From positions 3,713,371 to 3,777,370 of the forward strand of contig NC_135214.1 of NCBI RefSeq assembly GCF_052324685.1: a stretch of 64,000 nt of DNA, in the 5' to 3' direction. The number at the start of each line of letters is the position of its first letter. Position 1 is the stretch's first letter. The position numbers and the translations under genes were made by a program. Under the pieces are notes generated by a model. That model saw nothing but the letters and a program-made list of their open reading frames with translations, made no database searches and was not told the DNA's origin. This document shows positions 36,304-50,282 of this stretch, piece by piece. The DNA comes from Brachyhypopomus gauderio (lineage: Eukaryota > Chordata > Actinopteri > Gymnotiformes > Hypopomidae).

Positions 36304-36600
36304 TGTGACGGGCAGGTGTGAGCAACAAAAAGGAAGCGATCACGCCAAGTCTCAGGGAAAAAGGGTGGTTTAATATAAAGTGTGCAAACCTAAAACCCAT
36401 GCAATAGATCCGAATTAAGGATATAATGACCAGCGGTCAACTGGTACAAAGACAAGACATATATAGACAGACAAACGACCATCAGGTGGGAACGGATCAC
36501 GGGCTCCGCCCACCTGAGGGGCGTACACGACGTCACAAAACAACAACAACACAGCCGCTGTGGACGGAGGCGGCCGGTAGGGGGCCGCCTCACCGTGACA
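36304..36600 (-). repeat. LTR copy 1
   Basis: 297 bp. It diverges more from the other two copies than they do from each other (for example CGACGTCA where they have the CRE palindrome TGACGTCA). A 9-bp terminal hairpin GAGGCGGCC/GGCCGCCTC lies near the right end. Confidence 0.85.
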
Positions 36601-37664
36601 GACCCCCCCACCAAGCCGCACTCCCCTCCACAGGGTGTGTGGCACACAGCGGCTGCACAACAACACGAAGGGGCAGGAAGGCAAGGACAGGCAGGGACAC
36701 ACCTCCTGCAGTCCACGAGCTGAAACACAAAACACATAAAACATTACTCAGCTCACCTCCCCGGGCGGGACCCTGGACCGACCGGGCCGTTAACAACACA
36801 TAACCACGCCCCAGTCGGTCACAGGGCCCTCACGCCCTAACCGGCGTTTAGCCAGAGAGCCCCAAGGGTGTGCAGACGAGGAGCTACGACTCCTTTGTCG
36901 TCCTTAGTGTGTGCGTGTGTGCAGGTTACCTCCCCGAGGCGTGGCTACTTCACCTCCTGGACCTACCTCCTCCCAGAGCTGACCCCTGCCTTCTGCTAGG
37001 GGTCACCCCAGCCTCCTGGGGGAGCCAACCCCTCCCGGGGTCCCTCATCACAAGGTGGACTCCTCCACCCAACCCAGGAGCGCCAGAGACCGAGGCCCAG
37101 AGCGCCCCCGACGCGGGCTAGGGAGCAGCCCCAAGGGCCTCCTGGTCACCCCGGGCAGGAGGGAGGATCTCCATCCCCAGCAGGAGCTTTTCAGACCGGA
37201 GCCCCATGGTCCCCAAACATCCGGGGGCCCCAGCCCTCTAGGGAGGGGCTCTTCACGACCGGGCTCCGGTCACCCCACAACACAAGGGGGCTCCTGCCAG
37301 GTGGAGACCCCCACAAGGTCCAGGAACACCACGACACCGCCAAGGGGAAGCACCTGCACAGAAACAGCACTCACACACACACACACACACACACCCCAAC
37401 ACCAACATAGAACACAAACGCGCCCTACCCTATTCAGGGCCTCCCTCGGGAGAGACGCCCTCCGTGCCACACCCCATGGCACGGGACCACAGCCGGTCCC
37501 CCCCCAAACACACATTTAAGGGGAGGAGCATGTGTGGAATTACATTTAACAGTTGACATCACGCTAGGACAAAACACACACGCAAATACTAGACAAACAA
37601 AAAACGGTGTACAAACAGACAGACGGAACCCATTACATGCGCGCTCTGCTTACACACACACACA

Positions 37665-37758
37665 GTGACGCGCGCCGCTCAGAGCCGCAGTCGCTCCCCA
37701 CATTAAACACACGACACACGGGGAGCGAGGCGACAGTGACGAGCGGCAACCGCGTCAC
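37665..37758. ncRNA. Long branched hairpin, internal region 1
   Basis: Three nested stems: GTGACGC/GCGTCAC (37665-37671 with 37752-37758), CCGCTC/GAGCGG (37675-37680 with 37741-37746) and TCGCTCCCC/GGGGAGCGA (37691-37699 with 37720-37728). Position, order and stems recur in internal region 2. Confidence 0.5.
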
Positions 37759-37844
37759 ACATAAAACATTCAACATAGAACAGAACGAGCACGCACACTG
37801 GTCCACACGTCCGTCACCCGTACACACATACAAAACACACACGA

Positions 37845-37909
37845 GAGTCCACCAGGCAGACACCCTGGTGTTCGCCGTGCCACATACACACAAGCGCACG
37901 GCGAAACTC
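37845..37909. ncRNA. Three-way junction, copy 1
   Basis: Outer stem GAGT/ACTC (37845-37848 with 37906-37909) encloses hairpin A, ACCAGG/CCTGGT (37851-37856 with 37864-37869), and hairpin B, TTCGCCGTGC/GCACGGCGAA (37871-37880 with 37896-37905). Confidence 0.5.
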
Positions 37910-37929
37910 CCGCAACATACAACGGACAC

Positions 37930-38018
37930 GAAGAGCTGTCTCAGGGCAGACTGCCCTGGTCCTCGCCGTGCTACACACACACACACACACAAAACACAAA
38001 AGCACGGCGGAGCTCTTC
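37930..38018. ncRNA. Three-way junction, copy 2
   Basis: Outer stem GAAGAGCT/AGCTCTTC (37930-37937 with 38011-38018), hairpin A CAGGGCAG/CTGCCCTG (37942-37949 with 37951-37958) and hairpin B CGCCGTGCT/AGCACGGCG (37964-37972 with 38001-38009) with a CA-rich loop. Confidence 0.55.
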
Positions 38019-38120
38019 AAACAAAACACCACGCAGACAAACACTTACCACGAGACATGACCACGAACGAAGGAGAAAGAAAAAGAGACTCGGCGGCTTC
38101 CGAAGGGTGGCTGGTCATTC

Positions 38121-38417
38121 TGTGACGGGCAGGTGTGAGCAACAAAAAGGAAGCGATCACGCCAAGTCTCAGGGAAAAAGGGTGGTTTAATATAAAGTGT
38201 GCAAACCTAAAACCTGTGCAATAGATCCAAATTAAGGATATAATGACCAGCGGTCAACTGGTACAAAGACAAGACATATATAGGCAAACAAATGACCCTC
38301 AGGTGAGACGGATCACGGGCTCCGCCCACCTGAGGGACGCACATGACGTCACCAGACAACAACAACAACAGCCGCTGTGGACGGAGGCGGCCGGTAGGGG
38401 GCCGCCTCACCGTGACA
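38121..38417 (-). repeat. LTR copy 2 (shared by both internal regions)
   Basis: 297 bp, differing from copy 3 at only a handful of positions. Minus-strand order: TGACGTCA (CRE), GGGCGGAGCC (GC box), CTATATATG (TATA-like). A 10-bp inverted repeat CCCTCAGGTG/CACCTGAGGG lies around the GC box. Confidence 0.85.
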
Positions 38418-39444
38418 GACCCCCCCACCAAGCCGCACTCCCCTCCACTGGGTGTGTGGCACACAGCGGCTGCACACAAAACATGAAGGGGCAGGAAGGC
38501 AGAGACAGGCAGGAACACAAAACGTCCGGGAGCTGAAACATAAAACACAAAACATTAGGCAGCTCACCTCCCCGGGCGGGACCCTGGACCGACCGGGCCG
38601 TTAACAACACAAAACCACGCCCCAGTCGGTCACAAGGCCCTCACGCCCTAACCGGCATTCAGCCGGTAAGCCCCACGGGTGTGAGGGCGAGGGGCTACGG
38701 CTCCTCTCTCGTCCCTCAAGTGTGTGTGGGTGTGCAGGCTACCTCTCCAAGGCGTGGCTACTTCACCTCCTGGACCTACCTCCTCCCAGAGCTGACCCCT
38801 GCCTTCTGCTAGGGGTCACCCCAGCCTCCTGGGGAGCCAACCCCTCCCGGGGCCTCTCATCTCAAGGTGGACTCCTCCACCCAACCCAGGAGCGCCAGAG
38901 ACCGAGGCCCAGAGCACCCCCGACGCGGGCTAGGGAGCAGCCCCAAGGGCCTCCTGGTCACCCCGGGCAGGAGGGAGGATCTCCATCCCCAGCAGGAGCT
39001 TTTCAGACCGGAGCCCCATGGTCCCCAAACATCCGGGGGCCCCAGCCCTCTAGGGAGGGGCTCTTCACGACCGGGCTCCGGTCACCCCACAACACAAGGG
39101 GACTCCTGCCAGGTGGAGACCCCCACAAGGTCCAGGAACACTGCCAAGGAGAAGCACCTGCACAAAGAACACACCCTCACACACACACACACACAAACGC
39201 GCCTTACCCTATTCAGGGCCTCCCTTGGGAGAGACGCCCTCCGTGCCACACCCCATGGCACGGGACCACAGCCGGTCCCCCCCCAAACACACATTCAGGG
39301 GGAGGAGCATGCGTGGAATTACACGCAAACATTAGACAACACGCTAGGACACAACACACACGCAAAGACTAGACAAACAAATCAAAAAACGGCGTACACA
39401 CAAACAGATGGGACCCACAAACGTGCGCTCTACATAAACAGACA

Positions 39445-39537
39445 GTGACGCGCCGCTCACGTTCGCAGTCGCTCCCCACATGAAACACAAGACAACACGG
39501 GGAGCGAGGTGACTGTGAGGAGTGGCACCAGCGTCAC
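39445..39537. ncRNA. Long branched hairpin, internal region 2
   Basis: Same three stems as the copy at 37,665: 39445-39451 with 39531-39537, 39453-39458 with 39520-39525 (CCGCTC/GAGTGG, one G-T wobble in the plus sense), and 39469-39477 with 39499-39507. Loops differ by many bases while the stems are kept. Confidence 0.5.
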
Positions 39538-39619
39538 ACACAGAACATGTAACATAACACAACGAGCGCGCATACCGATCGACACGTCCGTTCACGCATA
39601 CACACATTCACAACAACAC

Positions 39620-39696
39620 GAAGAGTTATCGCCAGGAAGACATTCCTGGTCTTCGCCGTGCCACGGACACAACACGAAAACACGGCGGAACTCTTC
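39620..39696. ncRNA. Three-way junction, copy 3
   Basis: Outer stem GAAGAGTT/AACTCTTC (39620-39627 with 39689-39696), hairpin A CCAGGAA/TTCCTGG (39632-39638 with 39643-39649) and hairpin B CGCCGTG/CACGGCG (39654-39660 with 39681-39687). The C-G to T-A change in the outer stem and the G-C to A-T change in hairpin A relative to copies 2 and 4 are both compensated. Confidence 0.55.
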
Positions 39697-39717
39697 ACAC
39701 ACACTGACAACAGACCC

Positions 39718-39802
39718 GAAGAGCTTTCTCAGGGCAGACTGCCCTGGTCCTCGCCGTGCTACACACACACACACAAAACACAAAAGCACGGCGGAGCTCT
39801 TC
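39718..39802. ncRNA. Three-way junction, copy 4
   Basis: Outer stem GAAGAGCT/AGCTCTTC (39718-39725 with 39795-39802), hairpin A CAGGGCAG/CTGCCCTG (39730-39737 with 39739-39746) and hairpin B CGCCGTGCT/AGCACGGCG (39752-39760 with 39785-39793). It is the orthologous counterpart of copy 2 in the second internal region. Confidence 0.55.
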
Positions 39803-39904
39803 AAACAAAACACTACGCAGACAAACACTTACCACGAGACATGACCACGAACGAAGGAGAAAGAAAAAGAGACTCGGCGGCTTCCGAAGGGTGGCTGGTC
39901 ATTC

Positions 39905-40201
39905 TGTGACGGGCAGGTGTGAGCAACAAAAAGGAAGTGATCGCGCCAAGTCTCAGGGAAAAAGGATGGTTTAATATAAAGTGTGCAAACCTAAAACCCG
40001 TGCAATAGATCCAAATTAAGGATATAATGACCAGCGGTCAACTGGTACAAAGACAAGACATATATAGGCAAACAAACGACCCTCAGGTGAGACGGATCAC
40101 GGGCTCCGCCCACCTGAGGGACGCACATGACGTCACCAGACAACAACAACAACAGCCGCTGTGGACGGAGGCGGCCGGTAGGGGGCCGCCTCACCGTGAC
40201 A
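39905..40201 (-). repeat. LTR copy 3
   Basis: 297 bp, nearly identical to copy 2, ending CCGTGACA at 40,201 where unique sequence resumes. In the inferred orientation this is the upstream LTR of the array. Confidence 0.85.
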
Positions 40202-40881
40202 CTCACATTAATCAAATATTTTTACTGGGGTTTTTCAGCTGATTAATAGGAATGCTAATGCTAATTATCAGCAAAATAAAAAAATAAATTTATGAAAATA
40301 AACTGACCTTTGTGAATAATAAATATACTAAATATAGTAATACATCCATCCAACAGGTGTCAAACTCTAGACCTGAAGAGTTCCTGAAATGCACAGTCAA
40401 AGTGAATCTGGTAAGAGCAGGCCAACCCTGAACCACGCCATAGATCTACAGGACAAGACGATGCCATCGCTGTCTCCGCTGCTGAATTCACAGCACGGAC
40501 CCTGGTAGGTCGTGACATACAGGATGCTAGCATGTTAACACATCAAGCACTTCCGCAGGATTGGCTGCCCAAACGCATGATGTCATGGTGGAGTGTGGCA
40601 GGCCTACCGAGCGTGTGCACTGAGCCGGGAGTGTGTGGCTCATACCAGGGCAACAGGGCTCTGATTCAGCTCTGATGAAACCTTAACACGCTTATCCCAT
40701 ATTAATGTGCACCTTAACCAGTACCTGAAGAGAGTAAACAATGCTCCCAGCACAGCACTCCCCTTACTCTCAGGTTGGCATGTGTATCGGCAGGTATCAG
40801 CAAACCATTTAATATTCCATTTAGAATTCTACAGTGGATTAAAGATACTAGGAGAGATCACTGATTTTCATAAATTTATTA

Positions 40882-40883
40882 TT

Positions 40884-40916
<33 letters not shown>

Positions 40917-40942
40917 TATTATTATTATTATTATTATTAATA
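40882..40942. repeat. Self-complementary (AAT)n(ATT)n microsatellite
   Basis: A run of AAT triplets passes directly into ATT triplets, forming a perfect palindrome of about 60 bp able to extrude as a cruciform. Confidence 0.85.
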
Positions 40943-41009
40943 TTAATATTATACAGAGAGGACAGCAAAGGGTACAGAGAGCAATAAAAATCTTTGAAAT
41001 CAGTTGAAA

Positions 41010-47327: not shown

Positions 47328-47695
47328 CCTCTGCTGCATGAAGCTGTTTCTGTCCAATACATCCATCTCATAACCTACAAAGTTTTGTGGAGGTGTTTAC
47401 TTGTCTGCATCATGTTCCTCCAGCCTGGTTCAGTGGGGCAGTGTGTTCTGAGCTCAGCACCCTCACAGGACTTGATAAAACATGGATCCATGTATGTACA
47501 TCAAACATGCAGATCCCCCCAACCAACAGGTTACTGCTCTACTCTGCAGAGATGTCAGCCCTCCCTCCCTCAACACTTCATTTAGGTTTACAGCATAAAC
47601 AAAACTAATCTGCTGCTGGCCAAGGCCGCAGGCACCAGACACACTGACCAATTGCTTAATGATTATATGGCCTTCCAATTCACCACTGACTCTTC

Positions 47696-48762
47696 ACCTC
47701 CCCTCTCCTCATCTCTCCTCATCTCTGCTCTCCTCACCTGACCTCTCCTACCTTCTCCTCACCTCACCTCTCCTCACCTCACCTCACCTCACCTCACCTC
47801 TCCTCATCTCTACTCACCTCACCTCTCCTCTCCTCACCTCTACTCACCTCACATCACCTCACCTCTCCTCTCCTCATCTATACTCACCTCACCTCACCTC
47901 TCCTCATCTCTACTCACCTCATCTCACCTCACCTCACCTCTCCTCATCTCTACTCACCTCACATCACCTCACCTCTCCTCTCCTCATCTATACTCACCTC
48001 ACCTCACCTCTCCTCATCTCTACTCACCTCATCTCACCTCACCTCTCCTCATCTCTACTCACCTCATCTCACCTCACCTCACCTCTCCTCACATCACCTC
48101 ACCTCACCTCTCCTCACATCACCTCATCTCACCTCACCTCTCCTCACCTCACCTCTCCTCACATCACCTCACCTCTCCTCACCTCACCTCACCTCTCCTC
48201 ACCTCACCTCTCCTCACCTCTCCTCACCTCACCTCTCCTCACATCACCTCACCTCTCCTCACCTCACCTCTCCTCACCTCATCTCACCTCACCTCTCCTC
48301 ACCTCACCTCTCCTCACCTCACCTCACCTCTCCTCACCTCTCCTCACATCACCTCACCTCTCCTCACCTCACCTCTCCTCACCTCACCTCACCTCTCCTC
48401 ACATCACCTCATCTCACCTCACCTCACCTCTCCTCACCTCACCTCACCTCACCTCTCCTCACATCACCTCATCTCACCTCACCTCACCTCTCCTCACCTC
48501 TCCTCACCTCACCTCTCCTCTCCTCACCTCACCTCACCTCTCCTCACATCACCTCACCTCACCTCACCTCTCCTCACATCACCTCATCTCACCTCACCTC
48601 ACCTCTCCTCTCCTCACCTCACCTCACCTCACCTCTCCTCACATCACCTCACCTCACCTCACCTCACCTCTCCTCACATCACCTCACCTCACCTCACCTC
48701 ACCTCTCCTCAGCTCTCCTCAGCTCTCCTCACCTCACCTCTCCTCAACTCTGCTCTCCTCTC
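47696..48762. repeat. 1-kb pentamer satellite (CCTCA/CCTCT)n, nearly free of G
   Basis: Period-5 array built from CTCAC, CTCTC, CATCA and CTACT pentamers. From about 47,757 to 48,709 the plus strand has essentially no G. A higher-order period of 110 bp (22 pentamers) is visible: the block TACTCACCTCACATCACCTC occurs at 47,841 and 47,951. A plus frame stays open only because the repeat lacks stop codons. I do not call it a gene. Confidence 0.95.
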
Positions 48763-48906
48763 CTTATTTGGGAGGGGGGTGGGGTTTCCTGAGAGAGAGT
48801 AAATGTGGTCAATGTCACTACTACTGGCCTTATCACCTCTGCTATCAGCTACTAAATCAACACGGTGACTGCCTTTGTGCTCAGGCACACCCTATAGCAA
48901 GAACCC

Positions 48907-48908
<2 letters not shown>

Positions 48909-48982
<74 letters not shown>

Positions 48983-49036
48983 TACACACACACACACACA
49001 CACACACGCATGCATACGCACACACACGCACACACA

Positions 49037-49092
<56 letters not shown>

Positions 49093-49093
49093 T

Positions 49094-49124
<31 letters not shown>

Positions 49125-49142
49125 CATGCATACGCACACACA

Positions 49143-49203
<61 letters not shown>

Positions 49204-49210
49204 GCACACT
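48909..49210. repeat. Long compound (CA)n microsatellite
   Basis: About 300 bp of CA repeats broken by ACGCATAC-type interruptions that themselves recur three times. Two copies of CAGGCCTTGCAGCAAGGAGG follow (49,210 and 49,271), separated by a small CA run. Confidence 0.95.
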
Positions 49211-49811
49211 CAGGCCTTGCAGCAAGGAGGAATTAAATGTAAGAGATGTCCATCAAACCATCACACACACACAGGCCTTGCAGCAAGGAGGATTCAAGCC
49301 CGTGACCTGTGCGAAGTAATGGAGTGTGTACACCAAATCCAGTTTAGGTAGCCATATTTAAAGGAATAGATATTTCCTTAGTTATATACTGTACATGAAT
49401 TAATTTCTGATTTTCCTTAAATCCTTCAGGTTTTTAACTATTTATTAATTTTATCTATTTTTGTAAATGTTTTTCTTATTGGGCTCAATGTGCCCATAGC
49501 AATTCCCTATTATCACAGGTACATTTGGTCCCCACAATGAGCTAAAGAGATGCCCACACACACACATACACACACTCACACACAGAAACATGAAGGTGTA
49601 AATACGTGCATACGTGCTGTATCCTCTCGCAGACGTCTAAGCGCAGGCACACTCTCAGGAGAACCTAAACACTTCCCATTACATACGTCATATATCTGCA
49701 GGCTGCTGACCAACAGGGGGCTGCACCAGTGCCTGCGTGTGTAGAGGAGCCGTGAGATGAAGACAAAGCAGAATAGTGGACCAACCAGAGGAGAGAAGTG
49801 TGTGGGATGCA

Positions 49812-50282
49812 GCTAGAGCGGCTAGAGCAGTCAGAGCAGCTGGAACAGTCAGGGCAGCCAGAACAGTCAGGGCAGCCAGAGCGGCTAGAGCAAGAGCAGC
49901 TAGAACAAGAGCAGCTAGATCAGTCAGAGCAGCTATAGCAGCTAGAGCAAGAGCAGCTAAAGCGGCTAGAGCAAGAGCAGCCAGGGCAGCTAGAGCAAGA
50001 GCAGCTAGAACAGTCAGGGCAGCTAGAGCAGCTAGAGCAAGAGCAGCTAGAGCAGTCAAGGCAGCTAAAGCAGCTAGAAAAATCAGAGCAGCCAGAACAG
50101 TCAGGGCAGCCAGAGCGGCTAGAGCAAGAGCAGCTAGAACAAGAGCAGCTAGATCAGTCAGAGCAGCTCTAGCAGCTAGAGCAAGAGCAGCTAAAGCGGC
50201 TAGAGCAAGAGCAGCCAGGGCAGCTAGAGCAAGAGCAGCTAGAGCAGTCAGGGCAGCTATAGCAGCTAGAGCAGCTGCTCCC
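49812..50282. repeat. 15-bp-period minisatellite with an internal 234-bp duplication
   Basis: Units of AGCAGCTAGAGCAAG type. A long block beginning GCCAGAACAGTCAGG at 49,857 recurs at 50,091 (offset 234 bp). Because both periods are multiples of three, the array is open on both strands: plus frame 49776-50441 gives Arg/Ala-rich units, and minus frame 50299-49688 gives Ala/Leu-rich units. There is no similarity to a known protein and no splice context. Confidence 0.85.

Follow-up and report, generated by a model that had tools for sequence, protein, structure and literature searches.

Within a 64,000-nucleotide (nt) stretch of the Brachyhypopomus gauderio genome (C4:3713371-3777370 of 796.5 Mb; hereafter the window), a Ty3-type long terminal repeat (LTR) retrotransposon carries four copies of a three-way-junction fold. 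The pairing of this fold covaries, and the fold recurs in the leaders of many other insertions of the same genome, the source of every copy described here. Selection on pairing is well supported. We propose, with a probability of a little under one half, that the folds constitute a duplicated recognition or packaging module of a non-autonomous element.

Four three-way junctions in two internal regions

The four copies are as follows, each with an outer stem and two hairpins, A and B.

37841-37913, minus strand: junction c1 (outer stem 37905-37913/37841-37849, hairpin B 37873-37903, hairpin A 37850-37870)
37929-38019, minus strand: junction c2 (outer stem 38011-38019/37929-37937, hairpin B 37964-38009, hairpin A 37942-37958)
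39619-39697, minus strand: junction c3 (outer stem 39689-39697/39619-39627, hairpin B 39654-39687, hairpin A 39632-39649)
39717-39803, minus strand: junction c4 (outer stem 39795-39803/39717-39725, hairpin B 39752-39793, hairpin A 39730-39746)

The initial annotation had placed four such folds here, and all are present, with starts within a few bases of those it gave. As it described, two copies occupy each internal region (c1 and c2 the left one, c3 and c4 the right one). The sense-strand minimum-energy fold of each copy is an outer stem closing the two hairpins, the smallest of the three helices having 7 pairs. Compared with dinucleotide shuffles, the copies reached z values of -3.1 to -4.7 on the minus strand (as low in 0, 8, 0 and 2 of 1000 shuffles for c1 to c4) and of -5.1 to -7.2 on the plus strand (0/1000 each). 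Across the whole array, z was -3 or lower in 12/77 intervals of 100 nt on the minus strand and 16/77 on the plus strand, against 3/150 in controls. The window contains 12 occurrences of the motif CGCCGTG against an expectation of 2.1; 8 of the 12 lie inside the four copies.

In a register set by hand, which also served the outer-stem comparison of c3 with c1, 71 of the 72 outer-stem and hairpin B cells of the window copies are standard pairs on the minus strand, with 8 G·U and 0 A·C. The shorter outer stem reported for some copies is that of c1 as read on the plus strand; its minus-strand counterpart has the full length, with 8 pairs including two G-U, plus a flanking G-U. Only a 4-nt gap and 2 substitutions separate c2 from c4, so that the clearly distinct versions within the window number three. 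RNAalifold run on the four copies returned 2 pairs changed on both sides and a covariation term of +0.5, with c1 and hairpin A misaligned. Long-span folds of the whole leader mixed the arms of neighbouring copies and were left out of the verdict; in these, pairs kept through both-sided changes numbered 1 and 4 against 21 and 20 one-sided breaks on the minus strand, and 4 and 3 against 15 and 20 on the plus strand.

Covariation and recurrence across the genome

Further copies were collected in two sets. For set 1 the fold served as the query of a genome search, in which 40 of 902 first-look candidates were scored; its loci are 98-100% alike, which makes them useful for insertion anatomy and unsuited to covariation. 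Set 2 came from a search with the stretch spanning U5, the primer-binding site (PBS) and the donor-like site, the fold being excluded, and comprises the best 40 of 2007 first-look candidates by primer-site similarity, hence a non-random sample: 32 leaders (loci L089-L120), the two window places, and L060, L062, L063, L064, L066 and L067. A fold model trained on the four window copies matched at least one junction in all 40 places of set 2 (worst E 2.5e-05), the two window places matching by construction. Two junctions were found in 36 places, the second copy of L105 being degenerate, and a single one in L094, L097, L099 and L101.

Covariation was assessed in two alignments. The structure-fitted alignment A3 was built from 78 matches in 40 sources (35 distinct rows), namely the window, the five loci L056, L059, L068, L070 and L071, taken from set 1 for their differing junctions, and L089-L122. 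Here 91.8% of 708 cells were paired, compared with 88.4±0.5% in shuffles (0/500), and 27 cells had changed on both sides, compared with 7.9±2.8 (0/500). Pairs with a both-sided change numbered 7 against 3.7±1.2 (1/500), and the covariation score was 0.186 against 0.146±0.007 (0/500), while slid partners gave 38.7-55.9% pairing and 0-9 both-sided cells. Alignment A4, made from sequence only and restricted to the outer stem and hairpin B of 22 representatives, had 91.4% of 361 cells paired (shuffles 89.1±0.6%, 0/500), 12 both-sided cells (4.0±2.2, 0/500), 4 both-sided pairs (1.8±0.9, 22/500) and a score of 0.161 (3/500); its slides gave 35.5-53.4% pairing and 0-6 both-sided cells. Among these controls, slid partners alone preserve relatedness, whereas shuffles do not. 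Pairing and both-sided cells exceeded shuffles and slides in both alignments, supporting the earlier proposal that pairing is conserved over sequence. Each of the three helices includes pairs with both-sided changes.

Simulations gave a measure of how readily such pairing persists by chance. When the outer arms of c3 received 3+3 random changes, the number that separates c3 from c1, 2081 and 2644 of 200000 trials under two base compositions (1.0-1.3%) retained all 8 pairs; with 1+1 changes, as from c3 to c2, 28839 and 33050 of 200000 did so. When c3 received 14, 19 or 23 random substitutions, all helices had at least 7 pairs in 379, 204 and 143 of 4000 trials, and -34 kcal/mol was reached by 123, 62 and 49 of 4000.

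Parsing by position of 77 of the 78 rows (the L105 second copy was left out) yielded 22 types. Hairpin A forms 5-7 pairs in every parsed type, with differing letters and registers, and its segment contains GUC in 18/22 types. GUC is missing from two types of L090-type first copies, which have UCUC loops, and from the two types of L094/L097, where the hairpin is unrelated. The loops had been described as freely varying, which is true of hairpin B, with its UG-rich run of variable length, and not of hairpin A. When the c2 segment was mutated to equal distance in 3000 trials, equal hairpin A stability arose in 15 trials for the L103 first copy, 43 for c1, 63 for the L090 first copy, 126 for c3, 157 for the L112 second copy, 227 for L103 second, 403 for L093 second and 775 for L090 second, so that it was rare for some lineages and common for others. 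None of the three distinct hairpin A loops of the window contains a self-complementary stretch, and the suggested kissing through these loops is therefore unsupported.

Downstream of the junctions stands a further structure, S2, a long hairpin with an internal loop.

37661-37759, minus strand: S2 of the left internal region (minus z -5.6, plus z -7.12)
39444-39539, minus strand: S2 of the right internal region (minus z -2.45, plus z -5.27)

Its outer arms located an S2 span in 34/34 leaders (the 32 of set 2 and the window's two; 21 distinct), and each span folds as one long stem structure. The middle stem is altered in L100 and in the right internal region of the window, where it contains an A·C mismatch on the minus strand.

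Mismatches bear on the strand of action. The 374 outer-stem and hairpin B cells of the 22 types comprise 321 Watson-Crick pairs, 29 G·U, 3 A·C and 21 others. In the 12 types present at two or more loci, which were likely copied, the minus-strand counts are 178 Watson-Crick, 13 G·U, 0 A·C and 13 others, the remaining mismatches lying at the junction end of helices (outer pairs 7-8, B pair 9) or in the L097 type. New single-copy changes relative to a shared type, counted without both L103 types and L094 as separate types, amounted to 3 G·U (L105, L092, L056), 3 A·C (L059, L068, L070) and 1 other (L089). Shared types and new changes differ in their G·U to A·C ratio with a one-sided Fisher value of 0.02, in a test devised post hoc on partly non-independent cells. 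The 13 G·U against 0 A·C in shared types favour the minus-strand LTR transcript, which is the likelier acting molecule, as originally assumed. A fairer pair set drawn from both strands gave 14 G·U vs 8 A·C in a two-copy comparison, and the union of local pair predictions gave 57 vs 30, a count biased by one-strand folding.

Searches beyond this genome were also made. A phage collection gave no match, two exact patterns were found 0 and 0 times in viral contigs, and one genome-contig scan returned 0. A looser 16-base pattern occurred at 34 places in viral contigs and was judged to be chance: the 30 aligned rows shown spanned only 15-21 nt (best E 0.016) and mostly coincided with the 16-base pattern itself.

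Element anatomy and putative self-primer

The array is organized as LTR-internal-LTR-internal-LTR, head to tail on the minus strand, with LTRs of 297 nt ending in TG..CA.

36304-36600, minus strand: left LTR (3' LTR of the array), TG..CA ends, shared boundaries
38121-38417, minus strand: middle LTR, TG..CA ends, shared boundaries
39905-40201, minus strand: right LTR, the array's 5' LTR; TGACGTCA and TATATAT precede the putative start
38420-38429, also 36603-36612, minus strand: polypurine-tract (PPT)-like GGTGGGGGGG, recognized by its sequence, 2 bases before the middle LTR
40026-40035, also 38242-38251 and 36425-36434, minus strand: putative RNA start and self-primer GCTGGTCATT, 31 nt past the TATATAT start
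39894-39903, minus strand: putative self-priming PBS AATGACCAGC of the right internal region, one base past the LTR
38110-38119, minus strand: putative self-priming PBS of the left internal region, same position relative to the LTR
39826-39842, minus strand: ATGTCTCGTG, then donor-like GTAAGTG, with GT at 39832 (at 38048 in the left internal region)

The middle and right LTRs differ by 5 substitutions; the left LTR shows 13 and 14 differences from these two, plus 2 gap columns. A single element measures about 2.1 kb (297 nt, about 1.5 kb of internal region and 297 nt). All 8 set 1 copies given as loci have the LTR-internal-LTR organization, the eighth being another tandem, and 5-base target duplications are perfect in 7/7 single insertions elsewhere with the same LTR ends; these observations establish a genuine mobile element of the Ty3 type. 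No target duplication flanks the window array itself (TAAAC vs CTCAC), which would be expected if the array arose by recombination. Of 17 listed internal frames of at least 80 codons, the 9 tested, including 3/3 on the sense strand, gave no Pfam match at E 0.1. The element is therefore non-autonomous at most, and a coding reading of the internal regions was rejected.

The internal regions are mosaic, with blocks about 98% alike alternating with blocks of about 80-90% (e.g. 37019-37318 vs 38831-39130), and leader types are combined in other insertions (L047, L050, L053, L058; L102, L107). Further head-to-tail arrays are suggested at C1:794156-803388 and C2:861611-863537, where primer sites lie about 1.8 and 3.6 kb apart; the four C1 leaders (L117-L120) have the same two junction types. 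An apparent solo LTR with 86% similarity to the middle LTR, flanked by GTCTC at either end, lies at L061:4526-4821.

The RNA probably starts at GCUGGUCAUU, a position placed by TATA distance alone. AATGACCAGC is the exact 10-nt complement of GCTGGTCATT in 3/3 LTRs and 2/2 internal regions, and 1.7e-4 matches to a PBS complement would be expected in R-U5 from composition. The corresponding complement in Tf1 is 11 nt long. Judging by this complementarity, the element probably carries a self-primer of the Tf1/sushi type. A tRNA scan of the window found none. Candidate pretzel duplexes of the PBS flanks with the LTR (-9.2 to -16.8 kcal/mol) are irregular and differ between the two internal regions, and constraining the leader to the self-primed fold costs a little stability relative to the free fold (-45.9 vs -47.1 and -52.8 vs -53.9).

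On the minus strand, the leader runs from the PBS through ATGTCTCGTG and the donor-like GTAAGTG to the two three-way junctions and S2. The first junction lies about 90 nt downstream of the PBS, and the junctions about 30-215 nt downstream of the donor-like GTAAGT, which is kept in 31/32 leaders of L089-L120 (L092 has GTTAGT). The initial annotation was thus correct in placing the folds immediately after the 5' LTR, a position that can be refined to past the primer site and the donor-like site.

Other features of the array and window were recorded. An inverted repeat in U3, CCTCAGGTG/CACCTGAGG, flanks a GC-box-like stretch near TGACGTCA (40050-40149, 38250-38349 and 36450-36549; minus z -4.82, -3.07 and -3.61) and is imperfect in the left LTR. 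A strong hairpin region occupies the 3' part of both internal regions (38550-38649 and 36750-36849; minus z -5.25 and -5.17). Near the internal 3' ends lie donor-like GAG/GTGAGC and acceptor-like GTGCAG on the minus strand (38567 and 38470; equivalents at 36756 and 36653). Directly right of the array is a long TAA/TTA inverted repeat (40870-40952) with arms 88-97% complementary. The window also holds two long connexin reading frames and a 377-codon frame (47659-48792) whose Extensin match stays below threshold (31.4 bits against a cut-off of 105), adjoining the strongly C-skewed 48001-50000 (GC skew -0.53).

A proposed recognition or packaging role and its rivals

An element without proteins needs proteins made elsewhere and has its RNA as its sole asset, for which reason we read the fold as a recognition signal. 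Its duplication, its covariation, its position below a conserved donor-like site and its presence in all 40 scored places make recognition or packaging the best reading. Transcription would start at GCUGGUCAUU on the minus strand, and the first 10 nt of the RNA may pair with the PBS and prime reverse transcription in the Tf1/sushi manner. Past the donor-like GTAAGT, most copies examined carry two three-way junctions and then S2, and each junction would present the stem-borne loop of hairpin A, usually with GUC, next to hairpin B, which is conserved and has a free UG-rich loop. The module would be the cis signal that helper proteins bind, so as to package unspliced RNA only.

Several observations weigh against this proposal. 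A helper element was not found, no protein-based search for one having been made. 'Further pair types' were not above shuffles in A3 (451/500) or A4 (494/500), and sliding A4 by -2 likewise gave 4 both-sided pairs. In the larger alignments the covariation withstood the refuting test set by the initial annotation, but pairs close to the junction drift, and in one lineage the fold is single and altered. Finally, a coarser two-copy strand test within the leader was neutral, 5 to 5.

This neutral result is also what might be seen if no RNA selection were at work and the arms of the inverted repeats stayed alike through hairpin-templated mutation, inter-lineage recombination and CpG decay, an account to which the mosaic leaders (L047 and the other insertions named above) and the CpG-type double changes in hairpin B of L056 and S2 of L113 would also conform. 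However, templated correction predicts arms that are perfect on both strands, whereas 13 G-U cells and 0 A-C persist on the minus strand in shared types. In addition, the double changes of the outer stem, G-C/C-G and A-U/G-C in the c1 types and C-G/U-A at pair 7, fall outside CpG decay by context, and hairpin A retains its pairs across registers and sequences, making this account quite unlikely in our estimation. The well-conserved donor-like site just upstream would also suit junctions that serve nuclear export or splicing control of unspliced RNA instead of packaging, either through that donor or in the manner of a constitutive transport element (CTE). In type-D retroviruses, the CTE offers duplicated structured sites to a dimeric export adaptor, and the duplicated junctions would fit such an adaptor by analogy. 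Yet the donor-like site is a candidate only, and the window yielded no Rfam match at gathering score; we consider this function unlikely. The proximity of the PBS suggests in turn that the junctions might aid the start of reverse transcription, or control translation, within a fold of the PBS region. We find this very unlikely, given that the self-primed leader fold is the slightly less stable one, that the pretzel duplexes are equivocal, and that the tested internal frames offer no protein domain to translate.

Beyond the packaging reading, we suggest, tentatively and with considerable doubt, that the duplicated GUC-loop junction might be a stand-alone helper tag by which a protein-less, self-primed vertebrate element multiplies, having arisen independently of the retroviral tandem three-way-junction signal and been exchanged between lineages as a cassette by recombination.

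The element resembles parts of several known systems. Tf1/sushi elements have an LTR ending in CA, a PPT and, after the 5' LTR, a PBS complementary to the RNA 5' end (PMC10085805, PMC4600332); the element shares the LTR ending and has a PPT-like tract and a putative PBS complementary to its predicted RNA end. It differs in the lack of gag-pol in the tested frames, the 10-nt complement, the equivocal pretzel duplexes, and the tandem junctions, which are not described in the available portions of those two papers. The core packaging signal of human immunodeficiency virus type 1 (HIV-1) is a tandem three-way junction at the major splice donor, and only unspliced RNA qualifies, according to the accessible text of PMC5192399. 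The element likewise has a conserved three-way-junction leader RNA near a candidate donor, as in retroviral packaging signals. However, HIV-1 forms one compact fold including the donor, whereas the element has two separate homologous junctions downstream of a donor-like site, no recognized proteins, and visible covariation, the lack of which in HIV is discussed in the same text. A leader RNA fold is also found in Ty1, whose TIPIRT domain was assayed using a mini element supplied with a trans-acting helper; its pseudoknot and complementary kissing loops, as presented in the available part of PMC5454406, contrast with the three window A loops, none of which is self-complementary. Terminal-repeat retrotransposons in miniature (TRIMs) have LTRs, a PBS and a PPT around a short gene-free internal domain, with a limit of 1 kb in the accessible part of PMC6934838. 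The element shares this non-autonomous layout, with no genes recognized, and differs from TRIMs in its size of about 2.1 kb (above the limit of <1000 bp in total), its self-primer-like PBS and its structured leader.

Among the titles listed in our literature search, from which subscription journals were mostly absent, none concerned a tandem fold in an LTR retrotransposon, helper recognition or vertebrate Ty3-like packaging. To our knowledge, helper recognition of non-autonomous LTR elements and the packaging of Ty3-like RNA in vertebrates are poorly known. For the retroviral three-way junction, sequence conservation was called too high for a conclusive covariation test in the accessible text of PMC5192399. 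The fold of the element provides a second case beside this debated junction, and its natural covarying variants, repeated within one genome, constitute ready-made test RNAs.
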